Shown here: piece after piece, positions 40,046-49,820 of the stretch
Numbering within the stretch: the first letter of the stretch is position 1
Layout of the letters: each line of letters begins with the position of its first letter
Source of the DNA: Bdellovibrionales bacterium
GTDB taxonomy: Bacteria; Bdellovibrionota; Bdellovibrionia; Bdellovibrionales; Bdellovibrionaceae
DNA: 64,000 nucleotides
NCBI GenBank assembly: GCA_018266295.1
Contig: JAFEAQ010000015.1
Span: 62,001 to 126,000, forward strand
Direction: 5' to 3'
Program-made: the position numbers and the translations under genes
The notes under the pieces: model-generated
What the model was told of the DNA's origin: nothing
Database searches by the model: none
The model's input: only the letters and a program-made list of their open reading frames with translations

Positions 40046-40705
40046 TTACGGAAGAGTTCCTGTCACAACCATATGGTTTGTGTCGGGTCCTTCAAATCCA
40101 AAAGTCTGGTAGGAAAGAACAACGACCAGGCTTTTCCCGTTCACGAGCGCACGATCAATACGGTAGTCATAACTGCATTCACGAGACTTCGGCTGGCGCT
40201 GATCCTTTTGCAAAGTGATCTTCTGAGAAGAGCTTTCGAGGGATACCTCGATCATCTGGTCTTCTAGATCTTCAATACAATTTGGATTGAGCGTCCCGGC
40301 AGGAAGCTGCTTTAGCTCGATTGTGTAATCCCGGCCGTTCGCGGTCAGAGGTAAACGCAGTGGCGACTGCTCAGAGGCCGGTGTGGCGACGCCCAGATTT
40401 TGGCCCGCAATAATGCCGTTCTTAGTGAGGTCCGCTTTTGCGATCGCTTTTTGAAGAGCCTCGTTCTCATCAAACGATGAATCGTCTTCAATCATCACTC
40501 TGGTATGTTTTGTGATCGTGTTCTTTGCTGTATTCACCACGTAAACATCGGCGAGCGGAAAACCAGACCCGTCCTGAACGACAGAGTCTGCAAAGGCGAA
40601 GTATTTTTGATTTTTAGAAAATCCAAGGTTATGGAAATTCTTAGTGTCCATCGCGTGAGTTAAGGAGCTCGCTAAGAGCCCCAGTGTAAGAATGGTTTTT
40701 TTCAT
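40046..40705 (-). CDS. DUF2259-like secreted protein, paralogue A
   Basis: 219 aa. Signal peptide 1-18 (ends LTHAMD). The mature start NFHNLGFSKNQKYFAFADSV and VQDGSGFPLADVYVVN match the pattern of DUF2259 predicted secreted proteins, and the end CSYDYRIDRALVNGKSLVVVLSYQT plus GFEGPDTNHMVVTG is shared with the protein at 41241-41906. Family of unknown function, exported. The ATG directly follows the stop of 40706 (TAAATG), so the two are coupled. They share the operator-like site at 41174. Confidence 0.75.
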   Translation of the reverse strand: MKKTILTLGLLASSLTHAMDTKNFHNLGFSKNQKYFAFADSVVQDGSGFPLADVYVVNTAKNTITKHTRVMIEDDSSFDENEALQKAIAKADLTKNGIIAGQNLGVATPASEQSPLRLPLTANGRDYTIELKQLPAGTLNPNCIEDLEDQMIEVSLESSSQKITLQKDQRQPKSRECSYDYRIDRALVNGKSLVVVLSYQTFGFEGPDTNHMVVTGTLP

Positions 40706-41095
40706 TTAGTAGTTCTCGTCGCTAAATTTTGTTTTAAGGTGGTTTGAAGAGCAACCGCCAACGCCCCCATTGGCAAATCTGCTGATCTTGTTATCTCTCA
40801 CTTCGTAGGGATAGAGGTTGTTGCTCATGCCATCAGAACCCTGGTTATTAAGAGTCAGCGTTTGAAGAACTTGGCCTTTGCTATTGACCAGTTCAAATGC
40901 GCCAGGACCTTTGATTTGAAAAGAGACGTTCTGAATAACGCTCTTACCTGTAGATGCATCATCATAAGTCAGAGTTGATTGAGTCGTACTGTACGTCGTT
41001 GTGATGAAAGGCTCAGTGAAGTTACACTTGATGATATCTGCGTGGCTGATTGAAGACAGAAGTAAAACTGCTGTTGTAGCGAAAAGTTTGTTCAT
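40706..41095 (-). CDS. Small secreted protein, unknown family
   Basis: 129 aa from the ATG at 41095, preceded by GGAGATTTCC; a longer frame to 41191 has no SD and would cross the operator-like site. Signal peptide about 1-19 (ends SISHADI). The mature part is beta-rich (CNFTEPFITTTYSTTQSTLTY) with a Cys near the end (GGCSSNH). It resembles the small secreted protein at 15975 in style but not in clear sequence. First gene of a coupled pair with the DUF2259-like paralogue A. Confidence 0.7.
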   Translation of the reverse strand: MNKLFATTAVLLLSSISHADIIKCNFTEPFITTTYSTTQSTLTYDDASTGKSVIQNVSFQIKGPGAFELVNSKGQVLQTLTLNNQGSDGMSNNLYPYEVRDNKISRFANGGVGGCSSNHLKTKFSDENY

Positions 41096-41173
41096 GGAAA
41101 TCTCCTTACGTATTTGTTGTTTTAACTGATGGGCCAGTTTTAACACGACGCTTTCGGAGATCTCCAGAAACTC

Positions 41174-41202
41174 TGCCACAATCTGCGGCAAAAATACCGC
41201 AG
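41174..41202. promoter_or_regulatory. 29-bp operator-like site, copy 2
   Basis: Begins TGCCACAATCTGCGG and ends ACCGCAG, with inverted repeat CTGCGG-N8-CCGCAG. 24 of 29 positions match 44155-44183. It lies 79 bases upstream of the ATG at 41095. Confidence 0.6.
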
Positions 41203-41240
41203 CGGCTTTTCCCGTCTAGTGAGTTTACGAAAATGACAAA

Positions 41241-41906
41241 CTAGGGCAGTCGTCCCGTCACAACCATGTATTTTGTATCGGGCCCCTCAAAGCCCGGGCT
41301 CTGATAAGACAACACCACCACCAGGTTGTTTTTGTTTGTGATGACTTTATCAATCTTGAAATCATAGCTGCAGTAACGACCAAAGGGTGGATATCTCTCG
41401 CTATAGAGGATCACCTCTTGCTGGGTGCTGGAGTCTTTCAAATTGACGGTTATGATTTTACTGCCTTTATCGGGATCCGCACAGGCTACGGCGTTGTCAT
41501 CTTGGTCCTCTGAAAGGATCACAGAATAGTCTTTAGAATTCGTCCTGAACGAGGCCTGCTTATCATCTTTTTTCATCAAGCCCAGGTCGTTGCCGAGGTT
41601 TTCCCCGGGGGTGATTTGATAGGACTCGAGGTTTGCCGCTGGCAGAACTCTACGAAGGGCGGCACTTTCTTCATAAGCAGAATCGTCTTTGATCGTAAGA
41701 CTCTTCGTGCGAACAACGATGTTATTAGGAACATTCACAACACTCACAGTGGCGTGTGGAAATCCCGTGCCGTCTTGAACGACCGTGTTGGCGTAGGCAA
41801 AAAAGAGCCCGTCGGTAGAAAAACCTAAGTTTCGAAAGTTGTATAAGTCCGCCGCGCGGGCTGGGATCAAAGCGAATAGACAATAAGCGAACAACAGGTT
41901 TTTCAT
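41241..41906 (-). CDS. DUF2259-like secreted protein, paralogue B
   Basis: 221 aa. Signal peptide 1-18 (ends LIPARA). Same plan as 40046-40705: NFRNLGFSTDGLFFAYANTV, VQDGTGFPHATVSVVN, then CSYDFKIDKVITNKNNLVVVL and GFEGPDTKYMVVTGRLP. The two differ mainly in the central third. They probably arose by duplication with the small gene 40706 between them. AAGGAGC precedes the ATG. Exported, unknown function. It is the upstream neighbour of the copy 2 operator-like site. Confidence 0.75.
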   Translation of the reverse strand: MKNLLFAYCLFALIPARAADLYNFRNLGFSTDGLFFAYANTVVQDGTGFPHATVSVVNVPNNIVVRTKSLTIKDDSAYEESAALRRVLPAANLESYQITPGENLGNDLGLMKKDDKQASFRTNSKDYSVILSEDQDDNAVACADPDKGSKIITVNLKDSSTQQEVILYSERYPPFGRYCSYDFKIDKVITNKNNLVVVLSYQSPGFEGPDTKYMVVTGRLP

Positions 41907-42027
41907 TCAGGGCTCCTTACTTTGTGTGAGGTGCCTAACTTCAACTAAAATGCTCCCGGAAGAAACTCATCCGATAGAAATGTCAGTGACGTTTTCGGGA
42001 TACGCCTGTCTGGTTTTCCATTAGTTC

Positions 42028-42495
42028 TTAAACATCAAGGCTGATGCTGCAAACGACATCAGTAAACTGACTTTGCTGGTCTGGACCAAATCCTGGGCCA
42101 CGCCATACGCGCATCTCGTTACCGTTTTGTTTTTTGCGGTTCGGATCGCGGAGAACTTTGATTAAATCACCTTCATAGTTTTCGCCAACATACTTAATCC
42201 AAATAGGATTATTCAAATTCTGGTACGCCGCGAGTCCCACGATCGCCTTATGACTGTCATCGCTTTCAAAGAATTGTACGATCTCTTCGTGTTTTAATTC
42301 ATAAGCAGAGACTTGGCCGTCCGTTTCCATCATCGTCACTTCGCCACGGTTCGGTGCTGCCATTGTGCCGGTTGTTTCAACCGTCACAGTTACAACTTTA
42401 CCGCCGAAGGTCTCGCCGGCGCATGTAACATAAGCCAGCGCTGGTTTTGCGGCAAAAAGTGCGAGTGTTAAAGCGATGTGTTTTAAGTTTCTCAT
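42028..42495 (-). CDS. Small secreted protein, unknown family
   Basis: 155 aa. Signal peptide about 1-21 (ends KPALAY). The mature part is beta-rich with Cys in VTCAGE near the start and VVCSISL near the end, probably bridged. The sequence GEVTMMETDGQVSAYELK looks like a barrel-type lipocalin-like fold, but this is a guess. TGGAG precedes the ATG. It starts 26 bases after the stop of 42521, so it likely belongs to the regulator operon. Confidence 0.7.
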   Translation of the reverse strand: MRNLKHIALTLALFAAKPALAYVTCAGETFGGKVVTVTVETTGTMAAPNRGEVTMMETDGQVSAYELKHEEIVQFFESDDSHKAIVGLAAYQNLNNPIWIKYVGENYEGDLIKVLRDPNRKKQNGNEMRVWRGPGFGPDQQSQFTDVVCSISLDV

Positions 42496-42520
42496 AAGTA
42501 CTCCAGATTCAAATTTAAAA

Positions 42521-43360
42521 TTAAGGTCTCAACCAGAAGATGAACTCAACGCCACCGACCAGTAATTTTCCAGAAGACGTGCAAGCACCGGTTTGTGGTC
42601 CTAAGCAGCGCCCCCATTCAGGTTCATAAGTCAGATTACCAATAGTTTTGCCGTCTTTATCCAGCACGCCGATTTGAAAGCGATGGAAAGTTCCCCGTGC
42701 GTTTGATGAGGGCGGCGCCGTCAGAGAGCTCTTTGCCACAACTACTTTGCGATACTCATCACCGCAGTCGCCAGTTGTTTCAGTCATCAAGACCTCTTCT
42801 GTTTTATTCAAATCAAAAGTAAGGCCGTCCATCTTGCAAGAACCACTGGAGTAGATAAGATTCATCGTAATGTAATTCACTGGATTAAGTGGATTCCACC
42901 ACTGAGAGGGATTGTAGTTCTTCAAATCAAGAAGTGCCACGATGGGGCCAGAAACTTTGTACTGTTCATCATCAATACGCATAATGCCCAGGTACTCATG
43001 CAATACAAAGGTATAACGATGAATCGTTTCAGTGTCCGCGCGGCGCGTGCGCCAGATGCTGCGATTCACGACGATCAATTGCTGGTCCGGATCGTTGACA
43101 GCTTCAACTTCGCGCCCGTCTTTATAGATTACCTGATCTTCACTGCGAACGGTGGTGGTTTCAATAGCTCCAATGAGGAGCGCCAGGTTCACCTGCTTTA
43201 ACTCCGTGGATGGCAGAGTCTTTAAATGCACAACGAGATCTTTCGCTGTCATGATAAATTCAGCGGCATACGAGTCCCCGGCATTACCGTGGTCCCAGCC
43301 GACAGCGGCGAAAGTCTGGCACGAGAGGAGGGCGGTGAAGAGTACTAAAAACTTTTTCAC
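42521..43360 (-). CDS. Secreted protein coupled to the DUF4423 regulator
   Basis: 279 aa. Signal peptide 1-18 (ends CQTFAA). Contains GNAGDSYAAEFIMTAKDLV and the FVLHEYLGIMRIDDEQYKVSG segment (about 122-142), which has an H-E pair but not the zinc-protease H-E-x2-H. Four Cys lie in the C-terminal half (SCKMD, DCGDE, RCLGP, ACTSS). No family name. Its ATG overlaps the regulator's stop (ATGA), so both are translated together. Confidence 0.75.
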   Translation of the reverse strand: MKKFLVLFTALLSCQTFAAVGWDHGNAGDSYAAEFIMTAKDLVVHLKTLPSTELKQVNLALLIGAIETTTVRSEDQVIYKDGREVEAVNDPDQQLIVVNRSIWRTRRADTETIHRYTFVLHEYLGIMRIDDEQYKVSGPIVALLDLKNYNPSQWWNPLNPVNYITMNLIYSSGSCKMDGLTFDLNKTEEVLMTETTGDCGDEYRKVVVAKSSLTAPPSSNARGTFHRFQIGVLDKDGKTIGNLTYEPEWGRCLGPQTGACTSSGKLLVGGVEFIFWLRP

Positions 43361-44109
43361 TTAGGATTCTCCTGGGTTAGAGGGAAAAGCTGAACATTCA
43401 AACGATACACGGAATCACACGTTCCAGTTTCAAGAAACGTCGAGAGTCTGCGGCGGAAGTCCTGGATAAGATGTTTAGCTTCATTAATTTTATTCGAGTT
43501 GATGGCCATCGTAATACCGGTGATGTCGCGAATCTCAACAGCATCGTGATCCAGCGATTCCAGTGCGCGCTCAATATGCTGGCGATGCGACTGACGAAGG
43601 CGCGAGTTTGGAATATTCGACGGGGTGGCCATGTTTTTACCGGTGAGTTTCCAGTAAGTATTTTCTTTGGCAATAATCCCGAGCTTTTCCATACGATAGA
43701 GAGCTTCCATCGCAACTCCCATCGGGATGTTCAGACGTTTCGCAATGGCTTTGGTGTCCCCTTTAAAGCGCGGAAGTTCTAGTGTCGCTAAAATAGCAAA
43801 ATGTTCCCACGAGCTAATAACTTCGGCCGTTGCCATATCAAATTCATTATAGGGCACATGCTGCGCGTTTGCGCCGCCGCCTCCAGCGAGGCTCCCCATT
43901 AAGAGCATTTGGACTTGAAGGGGGTCTTGAATATCCAGGCGGTCAATGATCTTCATCGCCATTTTAGAAGTCATAGGACGCTTACGGCGAAGCAAAGCTG
44001 ACAACGTAGATGAGTCAATATCCAAGGAGCTTGCGAAGGCTCTCAGAGAGTATTTAGCGTTTTTACGGCTCCTCTCGGCGAAGAGCTTTTGCAGGTAATC
44101 AATCAACAT
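43357..44109 (-). CDS. DUF4423 / TIGR02147-type transcriptional regulator
   Basis: 250 aa cytosolic protein. The N-terminal helix-turn-helix is at about 18-60 (YSLRAFASSLDIDSSTLSALLRRK). A central helical region follows, with VISSWEHFAILATLELPRF, the hallmark segment of the family. A winged-helix-like part (KAIAKRLNIPMGVAMEALYRMEKLG) and a C-terminal domain with ITGITMAINSNKINEAKHLIQDFRRRL complete it. The family is abundant in Bdellovibrio and Fibrobacter. It is coupled by ATGA to the next secreted-protein gene. A hairpin and a 29-bp site lie directly upstream, suggesting autoregulation. Confidence 0.85.
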   Translation of the reverse strand: MLIDYLQKLFAERSRKNAKYSLRAFASSLDIDSSTLSALLRRKRPMTSKMAMKIIDRLDIQDPLQVQMLLMGSLAGGGGANAQHVPYNEFDMATAEVISSWEHFAILATLELPRFKGDTKAIAKRLNIPMGVAMEALYRMEKLGIIAKENTYWKLTGKNMATPSNIPNSRLRQSHRQHIERALESLDHDAVEIRDITGITMAINSNKINEAKHLIQDFRRRLSTFLETGTCDSVYRLNVQLFPLTQENPK

Positions 44110-44112
44110 AAG

Positions 44113-44134
44113 GGCCCGGGTTTAGCACCGGGCC
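44113..44134 (-). promoter_or_regulatory. GC-rich hairpin immediately before the regulator start codon
   Basis: Perfect seven-base stem GGCCCGG / CCGGGCC (44128-44134 with 44113-44119), eight-base loop, three bases before the ATG at 44109. No T run and no free SD. It could limit ribosome access to the regulator mRNA. Confidence 0.45.
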
Positions 44135-44154
44135 AGGGGTGTGGCTATGGAATT

Positions 44155-44183
44155 TGCCGCAAACCGCGGCAAAACTGCCGCAG
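44155..44183. promoter_or_regulatory. 29-bp operator-like site, copy 1
   Basis: Begins TGCCGCAAACCGCGG and ends GCCGCAG. It matches 41174-41202 in 24 of 29 positions. It is 46 bases upstream of the DUF4423 regulator ATG. Confidence 0.6.
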
Positions 44184-45058: not shown

Positions 45059-45325
45059 ATGAGTTTCAGCTTCAAATGGTCGATTCTATTATTGATTCTC
45101 CTAGGCGCTGTGGGTTGCACTGATGGCAATCCACAAGTCGACTTTCTCACCATGCCGACAATTCAAAAAGTCGTGAAGCCCGGAACTCCAAGCTCGGTGA
45201 ATCTTTCGCCAACAACAACGGTGACGGGGGGAAGTTATCAGCTAAAGGGCCGCGTGAGTTATATCACCACGCAAACGGCAATCAGTGGCGGGAACTATAA
45301 AATCAAAGGAAAGATTTCATTCTAA
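45059..45325 (+). CDS. Small lipoprotein upstream of the fibre gene
   Basis: 88 aa. Signal and lipobox LLGAVGC at about residue 20. The mature part holds two similar short units near the C-terminus, [14 protein letters not shown] and [14 protein letters not shown], beta-strand-like repeats. It ends 13 bases before the fibre ATG, so it is cotranscribed. A plausible role is an outer-membrane anchor, cap or chaperone for the fibre; the sequence shows only the lipobox and the repeats. SD weak. Confidence 0.65.
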
Positions 45326-45338
45326 CCAAGGACCAAGG

Positions 45339-48300
45339 ATGAGTAAATTCAGCACGTTTATTCTTAGTCTTATGTTTTTATCAAGCACAGCGCACGCTGC
45401 TCCGAATACATTCGTCTACGAAGGTGTGCTGGAAGACACGAACGGCCCGATTACCAGCGCTTCGTCATTAACTTTGAAAATCTATGATTCCACACTCAGC
45501 TGTCTTTTGTACGAAGAAACGCAGTCGGTGACTCCAGGGTCCGACGGCTCGTTCAGTGTTCTTGTGGGTTCTGCCGTTGCGGATGCAAAACGTACCGCAA
45601 ATGATCCACAGCTGGCGATGTCGACGGTGTTTATTTCAAGTGGAACGGTTCGTACAGCTGGAAGTGCCAACTGTACGACGGGCTACGCGGCGGCGAGTTC
45701 CGACAGTCGTCGTCTTGTGATTAACGTGAATGGTACAGACCTTTCTCCAGCGGTGGAAATTTCTTCGGCTCCTTTTGCTGTTGCAGCTGGCACGGCTGAC
45801 AAGATTGGTACTTATGATACTTCAAAACTTTTGCGGAGCGACGGTACAGCAGCGGTGACAGCCTTGACTGATGCCAAAGTCACTTTGCTGATGAATCTTT
45901 TAAATGGCACGGTGGTGACTCCGACCTCAAGCGGGGATGTAGCCAATAAAGGTTACGTTGACGGAGTGACTGCGAATTACTTACCGACATCAACCGTGTT
46001 TTCGGGGGATGTCAGTGGTACGTCGAGTAGCTTAAGCGTTGATAAAATCAAAGGGACCCCTGTCGATACAACGGGTCTCGTTGCCAATAAAATCTTAAAA
46101 TACGATGGAACGAAATGGATTGCGGGCGATGACAATAGCGGCTCGGCGCTGAGTCTCACCAGCGGCAAAATTTGGATCGGTAACGCGAGCAATGGTCCGA
46201 GTGAAGTATCTCTTTCTGGAGATGCGACAGTGGCGACGAGCGGCTTGATCACATTAAAGAGCGTTGGCACTGTTGGTACTTACGCAAAAGTCGTAACGGA
46301 TGCTCAAGGCCGTGTGATTTCGGGGACGGGGCTTACCAGCGGCGATGTTACCGGTGCGCTGGGCTTTTCACCGACGTCAGCTACTTCCGGTTTTATGAAT
46401 GGCGGCAACTCGTTTGGGGCTGCAGCTTCGCTTGGAACAAATGACTCTCAGTCTTTGAGTTTCAAAACAAACAGTACGACAAAAATGACGATCACGTCGG
46501 CGGGTAATGTCGGTATCGGCACGACCACTCCGGCAAATCCATTGGATATCGTTGGTTCTGTGAATGGCATGCTGGCCTCGACGGTGACTAATAATAACTC
46601 CTCGGGAACGACATGGTACCGAGTCACGAATGATGCGAGTCACTCCCTGCAATTTGGTGTTGCTGGTACGACTTTTAGCTCGAGCGGTGTTTACGCCCCC
46701 AATACAGCAACGATTTATTCCGATGTGAACTTAGCAGGTTTGAATCTCGGAACTGAGGGCGCTCAACCAATGGGTTTCTTCACTAATAATGCACTTAAAA
46801 TGACTTTGGATTCCTCTGGAAAACTAGGAATCGGCACAGCATCTCCTTCTGCAAATTTAACCGTGGGTGATGGCGCTGCGAATGACGGTATGATCATGGC
46901 CCTGGGCTATGGAACCGTTGGTACAAGCGGATCCTCGCTTTCAGTATCAGGCGCCGGAACGCGCATGATGTGGTATCCGAAAAAAGCGGCCTTCCGTGCG
47001 GGGGCGGTGTCAGGAACTCAGTGGGATGATACGAGCATCGGAACTTACTCGGTCGCGGCTGGCTTAAGCCCCATCGCTTCTGGGTCTAACTCCGTAGCCC
47101 TAGGTAATGGAGCGACAGCCTCTGCGGCTAACGCATTCGCATTAGGGCAAAGTGCCACAGCGACGTCGGCGGCTTCATACGCCATCGGCTCATCAGCAAC
47201 AGCTCAGGGAACTTCTTCCGTTGCGATAGGATCTTCTGCCAATGCATCGGCAACGAATGCAATTGCCATTGGTTTATCGACTTCTTCGAGCGCCACACAC
47301 GCAGTTGCTCTCGGTTCCAATGCGACAGCGAGTTCGACAAATCAAATTACTGTCGGTCCTTTTAATTTACCACTTGGAACTGAAAACGCGTCGACATGGG
47401 TTGCCACGGACCCTCTCTTTGTGATCGGTAACGGCGCCAGCTCCGCAGCTAAATCAAACGCCATGATGGTACTTAAAAATGGCAATATCGGTATCGGCAC
47501 AACAGGCGCACCAACAAGCGGTGCGCGCTTAGAGATCGCCGGCAGCGGAGCTTCTGCAAGCTCGATTATTATTCCGCGCGACACCACTGCAAATCGCCCG
47601 ACCGGCGTGAACGGGATGATTCGTTACGCGACAGATACAAATAAATTCGAAGCCTATGAAAACGGTGCCTGGACAAACATGATCGGCACTGGCGGCGGTT
47701 CAGGCACCGTAACTTCAGTGGCGGCTGGCAGTGGATTGACTGGCGGCACGATCACGTCCTCAGGGACTCTGGCGGTGGATTCAACCACGTCTGGTGTTGC
47801 TAGTAAAATTTTAGCATTAGATGCTTCAAGTGTGGCGACAGTTTCGGGATTAACTATTAAAGGAAACACTACAGGAACAGCCACTTTGCGCGCGCCTGCT
47901 AGTTTCACAAGTTACTCTCTGACTTTCCCGACATCATCAGGCACCAATGGCCAGGTGATGACATCAGACGGGGCGGGGAATCTAAGTTGGACAACTCCGA
48001 GTACACTTCCCTCTGGAACGACCGCTGATAATTATTTAAAATGGACTGGTACGAACTGGGCAGAGGCTTCGGTGAACGTAACGACCATCAAAGGAAATCT
48101 CGGTACGCAACAGTTCCCAACAAACTGCAAGGTGAGCCAGACCATGGTTTGGAATTCGCCGACGGACTCTTTCATGTGCGCAGATACAAATGCCGCGACA
48201 GTATCGACGATGGATAAAACAATCTACGTCAATGCCTCCGGCAGTGATACCGCTTGTAATGGGACGGCCGCTGCAAGTGCTTCAACTCCACCGAATTGCG

Positions 48301-49820
48301 CCTTCCAGACTTTGCAAAAAGCAGTTGATAGCACGCCAGATTTCATCCGCCATAAAATCACCATCGAAGTCGGTTCAAATCTGACATCTCAAGGGAACGA
48401 TACGGCGGTGGCAGTTATTAATAAAAATATAGCCGCGCAAAGTATCACGAACGGTCCCTTCTTAATTATTAAAGGATCTACAGGTTCTGAAATTATCAGC
48501 CAAGGCGCATTTTCAAATGGGACCGGTATTGTTGTTGGACCAGCCGCCAGCGGGGTTTATATCAAAGAAATCGGTATCAGTGATTTCCAAGATACAGGTA
48601 TTCGTATTGATGGTGGTTTAGCCGTTATTGATAATGTCATCTTTAATAACAATCGCCGCGGTCTTTCTGTTTCAAGCGCAGGCCGCGCGATGTTAGGTGC
48701 AAATATCAATATTAACTTATCAAATTCTTCGGGCACTGATGGTTCTCGCGGGATTGAGGTTTATCAGGGTTCAGTTAGTTCCGAAGCGGCGTTGAATATC
48801 AATCTTGGGGCCGCACAAAACAATCGTGGTATTGGTATCGAGTACGGAGATTTGAGTATCGAAGAGCAAGCGACAATTAGCGGTACGGGATCTCAATATC
48901 AGACGGGTGTTGAGGTCGGCAATGGTGGCTCTTTGAGAGTTGAAAATAACTACACCTTGCGTGTGAACATGGGCAACAACTATAGCTCAACCGCCGTTCG
49001 TGTCAGTAACGGTGGTCACCTCAGTGTTAATGGAACTTTGCAGCCAGAATCTGTTTCAAATACGGCATTAGTCTGTGAAAACAATGCGGTCTGTGATTTC
49101 TATGGAGCTTTTTATATTCCGAATACAAGTTCGAGCACGAATGGATATGTCATTGTTAGAAATGGATCTATTTTAAATGCCCAGTTGAGCTTTAAACTTG
49201 AAGCCAACACCATCGGAACCGGTGCGGCGGCGATTCAAGTATCCGAAAATTCGATCTTCAAGTTTAACCCAGTGGTGTCTGGCGGCATCTTAAGAGTTTA
49301 TGGCAATAGCGGTGCGGTTGGGATTCGGGTGACAAATAATAGCCAATTTAAAGTCGAAACATCTATGAGCCACAACTTGGACTTTGTCGGTTTAAACAAC
49401 ATGGCAGAAGTTTCTAATATGAGTTCAGCGACCTTTGCTTCCAACGTGATTGGTGGTAACTCGCTTGCGATGAGTATGGATGATTCTAGTAAAATCACCG
49501 CACCAGCGGGCTATGGTTACGCAATACCATACAAAATCTGCCCAGGGGGCATGACTCCTGTTGGAAGTGGCAATGCTGGATTCTGTATGGACACCTCAAA
49601 CACAACCCAGGCGACTTACTATAACGCCCTCAATACCTGCTCAGGCCGCGGTTTAAAACTCTGTACAAAACAGCAATACGCTATGTATTGCGCTCAAGGA
49701 AACACCATCAGTCCAGCAGTCTGGACGGCAAACATCGAAGATCTCACATGCGGTCCATCTAGTTTAAGCGCAGCCGGAGATGTGATTAATATGAATTACT
49801 ATTTCCGTTGCTGTCAGTAA
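45339..49820 (+). CDS. Giant mosaic trimeric fibre / adhesin (MAT-like)
   Basis: 1493 aa from the ATG after AAGGACCAAGG; the longer frame from 45285 overlaps the lipoprotein and is not signal-like. Signal peptide 1-20 (ends STAHA). Then a beta-sandwich-like N-terminal domain ([14 protein letters not shown]), and tail-fibre-type units near 389, 494 and 715 ([41 protein letters not shown]). YadA-head-type repeats lie at about 565-670 ([19 protein letters not shown]). A right-handed beta-helix-like region covers about 960-1385. The C-terminal 100 residues are Cys-rich ([18 protein letters not shown]). This plan fits the chimeric fibres that Bdellovibrio uses to recognise prey. Confidence 0.85.

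Follow-up and report, generated by a model that had tools for sequence, protein, structure and literature searches.

A candidate three-half-site operator plan upstream of a DUF4423 regulator gene and its paralogues in Bdellovibrionales

In the LacI family, local regulation allows operators to be paired with their regulators, and a correlation exists between two transcription-factor residues and two operator bases, as described by Camas, Alm and Poyatos (2010, PMC2978694), a study to which PMC4052901 leads. DUF4423 is among the most multiplied regulator families in the Bdellovibrio-like bacteria. Its targets were not found in the openly licensed PubMed Central (PMC) papers searched, where DUF4423 was found only as an entry in a proteome table (Bd3700), TIGR02147 was not found, and we met no description of an operator, a promoter plan or a code for any member of either; among the PMC entries listed for regulons in Bdellovibrio, for operators of paralogous helix-turn-helix proteins and for expanded families, none concerned DUF4423. 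Here we analyse a 64,000-nucleotide stretch from a Bdellovibrionales bacterium (GCA_018266295.1, contig JAFEAQ010000015.1, positions 62,001 to 126,000 of the forward strand; hereafter the window), in which the gene for a 250-aa DUF4423 regulator and a nearby operon for proteins with secreted-type features are each preceded by a related 29-bp site. Judged from sequence comparison, the 250-aa protein, with a probable XRE-like helix-turn-helix and a DUF4423 domain, is very likely the factor that binds both sites, with its own operon and the secreted-protein operon under its control.

The regulator belongs to the DUF4423/TIGR02147 family by both curated models, scoring 147.9 bits against PF14394 (DUF4423; cut-off 30, E 3e-43) and 114 bits against TIGR02147 (cut-off 50, E 8e-33). 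HTH_3 matches its N-terminus, before the DUF4423 domain, at 18.1 bits (E 0.0027), which is under the Pfam cut-off of 23. A structure model built from the single sequence has five helices within residues 1-75, among them 2-16, 22-28 and 33-40; its mean predicted local distance difference test (pLDDT) score is 49, with ten-residue blocks averaging 66-89 over residues 1-60 and poor quality past residue 66. Among 140 genomes from the order, DUF4423 is present in 130; all 14 control genomes lack it.

Two related sites and their orthologues

The initial annotation had matched 41174-41202 (TGCCACAATCTGCGGCAAAAATACCGCAG) with 44155-44183 (TGCCGCAAACCGCGGCAAAACTGCCGCAG) at 24 of 29 positions and had read C(T/C)GCGG-N8-CCGCAG in both; direct comparison of the sequences bears this out, and the regulator-side site does lie 46 bases from the regulator ATG (44109). 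The distance of 79 bases given for the other site also stands, ending at the start of the 129-aa gene (41095), but the operon behind it, which had been placed at 40706-40046, extends over 41095-40046. Both sites are intergenic, and the flanking genes are all on the minus strand. The inverted repeat holds as part of the site and not as the whole: it covers only two half-sites, A1 and A2, and the single-palindrome reading was dropped. In the direction of the genes, the plan is TGCGGCA-N4-TGCCGCR-N3-TGYGGCA, that is, three half-sites in fixed order (A1 forward, A2 reverse, A3 forward). The regulator site is written TGCGGCA-gttt-TGCCGCG-gtt-TGCGGCA, with its A2/A3 centre at 44163, and the target-operon site TGCGGTA-tttt-TGCCGCA-gat-TGTGGCA, with its centre at 41182.

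A search of the 4,222,407 bases of the source genome with the joint 29-bp consensus, itself derived from the two sites, returned these two sites only at up to 3 mismatches, and the reversed consensus found no place; the scatter across the genome and inside genes that had been named as grounds for giving up the proposal was not seen in this search. The exact 20-bp pattern occurs at three places in the genome, namely both sites and one on another contig. Within the window, the 20-mer with 2 mismatches allowed matches about as often as chance predicts (11 matches, 7.3 expected), so specificity resides in the full 29 bp.

Relatives of the regulator were sought by protein search in 118 related genomes, and were found at 69% identity in G058, 70% in G049, 69% in G057, 57% in G047 and 53% in G106; the copy in G063 (66-67%) is split into two frames (L036/L042 2110-2846, a metagenome assembly), which may be an assembly error or real decay. 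The gene order of regulator and 279-aa partner recurs in all of these genomes. G058, G049, G057 and G063 have the site 40-60 bp ahead of the regulator, and it is kept across these orthologues of 66-70% identity even with a different upstream gene. In G047, where a 1994-aa gene (L040 3594-9624) precedes the regulator, A2 and A3 of the site are found at the head of that operon.

At up to 2 mismatches, the 28-bp pattern occurs at 13 places in the 118 genomes, 12 of which are in the five genomes, the source genome included, that have such a regulator (own 2, G058 2, G057 2, G063 2, G049 4); the thirteenth, in G066, is within an open reading frame (ORF). The exact 18-bp core occurs at nine places (G058 2, G063 2, G049 3, G027 1, G040 1). 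The one in G027 is 64 bp upstream of a different DUF4423 gene, 33% identical and with a similar helix, and that in G040, downstream of a DUF4423 operon, is possibly unrelated. In the orthologue genomes G049, G057, G058 and G063, sites unlinked to the regulator are found ahead of genes whose products have signal-like N-termini. In G058 and G057 this is a DUF2259-like gene, which in G058 is ~228 kb from the regulator; in G049 it is two genes of secreted type, and in G063 an ORF similar to that of the 129-aa protein of the window. The DUF2259-like and 129-aa labels come from reading the sequences side by side with the window proteins.

In G058 and G057, a second full site precedes the regulator site by ~180 bp, and the interval has no clear gene (L037 10361-10510, L039). 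The stretch between the two sites contains an inverted repeat, and G049 has a 113-aa gene at that place; the stretch is possibly a lost gene or a small RNA.

Operator plan, promoter offset and residue-base association across DUF4423 genes

In all, 315 DUF4423 genes were examined for upstream sites, using a score for the agreement of three 7-mers with free spacers and no preset sequence (maximum 21). In the first set, of 152 distinct genes, 8 reached the maximum (shuffles 0.0) and 26 scored at least 19 (shuffles 1.1). The plan and a first rule relating protein residue to base were recorded before new genes were fetched, and in the second set, of 107 new genes, 13 reached the maximum (shuffles 0.0) and 32 scored at least 19 (shuffles 0.9). 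The third set comprised 56 genes, two of which were dropped for too little upstream DNA; 13 of the remaining 54 exceeded 15.5 when the promoter match was included in the score, versus 0.8, and 9 versus 0.5 on the site-only score. The paralogues share the arrangement and have different half-site letters, with CACTTTG often at the site centre. The three-half-site plan is thus shown for a large minority of DUF4423 genes.

As a control, the upstream regions of other genes were scored, and 18 of 412 reached at least 19. Ten of these were DUF4423 promoters scored through an ORF that neighbours or overlaps the DUF4423 gene; 5 were rows in DUF4423 loci and 3 are unexplained. The 5 rows are same-form sites in L015 (both strands), L017, L029 and L219, loci fetched for DUF4423 genes, where on one strand the site stands with the same geometry ahead of an ORF with a signal-like N-terminus. 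Counts of pairwise 7-mer repeats by spacer were dropped in favour of the three-half-site score, being raised at nearly all spacers by long palindromes and ordinary hairpins counted repeatedly, and the count of A1 upstream versus mirrored downstream (54 versus 4 of 56) is biased, since A1 was part of the selection.

Other layouts were seen in parts of the family. One subgroup (L154, L157, L166, L169, L174, L290, L291, L312) has upstream CGGGACA-N3-TGTCCCG palindromes, in two copies 28 bp apart in L154, L157, L166, L169 and L174. Some members of a subgroup with the helix IPSSRLSDY have the gapless palindrome AATTACCGGTAATT (L023, L152; ~81 bp upstream of the gene).

For the promoter analysis, 42 sites at <60% identity, from 50 with a site score of at least 13 among 259 genes, were aligned on the A2/A3 centre. 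The alignment revealed TTG at +16 to +18 and TA(A/T) at +39 to +41, neither of which was among the search criteria; together they resemble a sigma70 promoter whose -35 starts 16 bp past the operator centre. The -35/-10 match at offset +16 averages 5.79/12, compared to 3.45 (standard deviation 0.42) elsewhere, and ranks first of 121 offsets, with means of 6.5 for the discovery sites and 5.1 for the held-out sites. In 9 new sites, offset +16 is again first of 121 (7.0 versus 3.4). It is also the best of 65 offsets (5.05, with +15 at 5.0) in 19 sites comprising those of the regulator orthologues, the G027 relative and the targets, which are kin and not independent, several of them with poor individual matches. 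The fixed spacing between operator and -35/-10, as for activators bound just upstream of the -35, was found in the 42 and in the 9 new sites, placing the A2/A3 centre just upstream of the -35 and ~51 bp upstream of the predicted transcript start.

Of 56 representative sites, 21 have their centre 50-57 bp before the start codon, and the transcript should therefore begin at or beside the codon; the regulator promoter of the window, with a start predicted near 44112, is of this kind, and the target operon, with a start predicted near 41131, a predicted leader of ~36 nt and AAGGAGA ahead of its ATG, is not. All 21 genes start with ATG, and none (0/21) has a Shine-Dalgarno-like motif (AGGA/GGAG/GAGG) within the final 18 nt. 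Among the other 35 sites, whose start codons are less certain, such a motif is present in 3, and for genes with TTG or GTG starts the distances may be shifted by wrong start codons. Many DUF4423 transcripts are, on this evidence, probably leaderless. At 44113-44134, a GGCCCGG...CCGGGCC inverted repeat spans the predicted -10 and start of the regulator promoter.

A scan of 71 residues against 8 base positions (568 pairs) in 46 representatives at <55% identity gave residue 33 with base +4 as the strongest pair (z 9.9), which came first again in all 56 (z 12.4). The counts among 55 are Q-A 5/5, H-G 3/3, V-T 4/4, P-T 24/26, S-C 6/7 and A-T 6/8. The resulting rule is right in 48 of 53 cases, where a constant guess of T gives 34, and was equalled by 0 of 20000 permutations. 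It was found from the first two sets, and the third set is its only test: fixed beforehand as Q33-A, S33-C, P/V/A33-T and H33-G, it was right in 9 of 10 cases (equalled by 17 of 5000 permutations), including both H33 cases, for which the prediction came from a single example. At mutual identity <40%, it holds in 18 of 22 (0/20000). Beside the same-form sites in the four DUF4423 loci of the control, the helices SPSALSE, SPSALSE, APSALSE and EPSALSQ go with TGTTCC, TGTTCC, TGTTCC and TGTGTC, in agreement with the rule (P to T), which was noticed afterwards and not predicted. D or E at residue 32 goes with G at +5 in 8 of 9 versus 2 of 46, a post hoc association with no test case in the third set.

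After removal of the similarity of the rest of the protein, site similarity tracks four helix residues (partial r 0.37, 0/2000 permutations). The half-site letters vary with the recognition helix of the paralogue, and the site is therefore tied to the adjacent protein and not to another factor. Residues 33, 34 and 38 correspond in position to contacts of the phage 434 repressor, and contacts of Gln with Ade and of hydrophobic residues with Thy are chemically sensible.

Proposed mechanism and its alternatives

From the computed site, conservation, family plan, promoter offset and residue-base association, we infer a scheme of binding, oligomeric state, activation and signal sensing. That the regulator binds both sites, as initially proposed, is supported by the conservation in orthologues, the concentration of the 28-bp matches in regulator-bearing genomes and the covariation of helix and half-site letters. 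A2 and A3, with centres 10 bp apart on one helix face, are most likely held by a dimer, and A1 would be held by a further subunit or dimer. Bound upstream of the -35, the protein most likely recruits RNA polymerase and so would activate both its own operon (positive autoregulation) and the secreted-protein genes, with the DUF4423 domain presumably sensing a signal. Each paralogue would read its own half-site, mainly via residues 32, 33 and 38 (own numbering) in the region of the recognition helix, at positions equivalent to those with which the 434 repressor contacts bases.

Activation is preferred over repression because the place of the operator is fixed and does not overlap the -35, and we regard it as the probable sign of regulation. 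If the regulator instead bound both sites and repressed, blocking upstream polymerase contacts in negative autoregulation, the geometry of its own promoter alone would not give the sign away; many XRE-type regulators are autorepressors, and the word operator usually implies repression. We consider this unlikely, given that the site overlaps neither the -35 nor the -10 and that distant paralogues with weak -35 boxes keep the same distance from operator to promoter, a constraint that repression by steric hindrance would not impose. That a different factor of the genome, and not the adjacent DUF4423 protein, reads the sites is improbable: adjacency by itself is no proof of binding, and the source genome has 40 DUF4423 matches, but the letters of the site follow the helix of the adjacent paralogue and the motif occurs where an orthologue of the regulator occurs.

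Hairpins of A1 with A2 or of A2 with A3 could in principle terminate the upstream transcript or work as an attenuator; the two pairings could be mutually exclusive, the sites lie ~40 nt past upstream stop codons, and a terminator-like pattern on the plus strand overlaps 44166-44181. This is very improbable, as there is no T run on the gene strand and no minus-strand terminator match at either site, and the site is upstream of the predicted start and so would be absent from its own transcript. Moreover, the upstream genes vary between orthologues, Rfam gave no match at E<=0.5, and it is the sequence, not pairing alone, that is kept within a genome and tracks the recognition helix. The terminator or RNA-element reading was rejected on the lack of T runs, the position before the predicted start, the helix correlation and the Rfam result. 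A chance likeness of two GC-rich intergenic stretches would fit the frequency of the 20-bp pattern with 2 mismatches and the finding that, in most genomes, the 18-bp core with one mismatch turns up no more often than the reversed control; it is contradicted by the uniqueness of the 29 bp, the conservation in orthologues and the recurrence across the family, and its probability is negligible.

Several results weigh against binding and activation by the adjacent regulator and against their extension to the family. A recognisable site was found in just 57 of 240 DUF4423 genes at 15.5 (~4 by chance), so that most are without one. The first rule, an acidic residue 38 with C at +6, missed significance in the held-out set (6/9 versus 7/18, p 0.17); in the third set, the figures are 4/4 versus 1/6 (p 0.024; pooled p 0.0008). 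Related proteins are not independent, and among the 9 with mutual identity <35% the residue-33 rule falls short of significance (1180/20000). Among the orthologues, G047 keeps A2/A3 without A1 and has a promoter match of 2/12, G063 has a promoter match of 3/12, and the DUF2259-like sites of G057 and G058 have a poor A3 and a weak -35. In G106 and G072, which have more distant regulators, no site was found in the 220 bp upstream of the gene.

Returning to activation by the adjacent regulator, we hypothesize, at evenly balanced confidence, that the DUF4423 proteins of predatory bacteria are a large collection of activators insulated from one another, with each one coupled to secreted-protein genes of its own. 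These would share one operator-promoter chassis (A1-A2-A3, a -35 located 16 bp past the centre, and a -10), a nearly one-residue-one-base code (residue 33 to +4 as in the rule above, D/E32 to G at +5, E/D38 to C at +6) and transcripts often starting at or near the ATG. A shared plan and code would make the targets of many DUF4423 regulators predictable from sequence, and would link these regulators with the secreted proteins encoded beside them.

The locus and its known relatives

The features of the locus are collected in Table 1. No site was found upstream of the DUF2259 gene that lies between the two operons. By a crude signal test, 133 of the 160 DUF4423 genes with enough downstream DNA have a gene with a signal-like N-terminus directly downstream, a count whose control is not clean, as partner genes are among the control ORFs. 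In 70 such partners, a GN(G/A)G-like motif was seen close to the mature start (for example 43360-42521, and in L007, L020, L153 and L163), and the module of regulator and 'GNGG' secreted protein seems to be multiplied in these genomes. Further along the window, 45285-49820 holds a 1511-aa ORF with repeated low-complexity stretches.

Table 1. Coordinates of genes, candidate sites and proposed promoter elements (all within the window)
Feature	Position	Strand	Basis
DUF4423 regulator, 250 aa; predicted recognition helix at residues 33-40	43357..44109	-	PF14394, TIGR02147, HTH_3, structure model
279-aa protein, signal-like N-terminus, GNAGDS motif; operon partner, overlaps regulator end	42521..43360	-	
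155-aa protein, signal-like N-terminus; regulator operon gene 3	42028..42495	-	
DUF2259 predicted secreted protein, 221 aa; between both operons	41241..41906	-	PF10016, E 6e-24
129-aa protein, signal-like N-terminus; target operon gene 1	40706..41095	-	Similar ORF in G063 also preceded by a site
DUF2259 predicted secreted protein, 219 aa; target operon gene 2	40046..40705	-	PF10016, E 9e-26
Regulator-promoter site, three half-sites	44155..44182	-	Sequence; conservation in 4 orthologous promoters
Regulator site A1, TGCGGCA	44182-44176	-	
Regulator site A2, TGCCGCG	44171-44165	-	
Regulator site A3, TGCGGCA	44161-44155	-	
Target-operon site, three half-sites	41174..41201	-	Sequence
Target site A1, TGCGGTA	41201-41195	-	
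Target site A2, TGCCGCA	41190-41184	-	
Target site A3, TGTGGCA	41180-41174	-	
Proposed -35 TAGCCA, regulator promoter, 16 bp past site centre	44142..44147	-	Weak match, placed by family-wide offset
Proposed -10 TAAACC, regulator promoter; predicted transcript start ~3 nt before ATG	44119..44124	-	
Proposed -35 TGGAGA, target operon	41161..41166	-	
Proposed -10 TTAAAA (or TAAAAC one base on), target operon	41138..41143	-	

XRE/434-type regulators (HigA, SinR, ClgR and C-proteins) are at the top of the Foldseek list for the regulator model, and their recognition-helix positions correspond; the matches are weak (best E 0.28, with a model of mean pLDDT 49). Several of these proteins are repressors with other operators. 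The peptide-pheromone regulators Rgg and PrgX, which combine a helix-turn-helix with a larger helical domain, are low in the list and resemble the regulator in domain layout only; among solved structures, the regulator had no sequence match to them, only one to HigA (E 0.097). The mechanism class is ordinary, and the operator plan, promoter geometry and residue-base rule were not found described for any DUF4423 member in the papers searched. The LacI-family code follows the same logic as the one proposed here, and the DUF4423 case differs in the family, the operator, the three half-sites, the promoter at a fixed offset and the activator-like arrangement.

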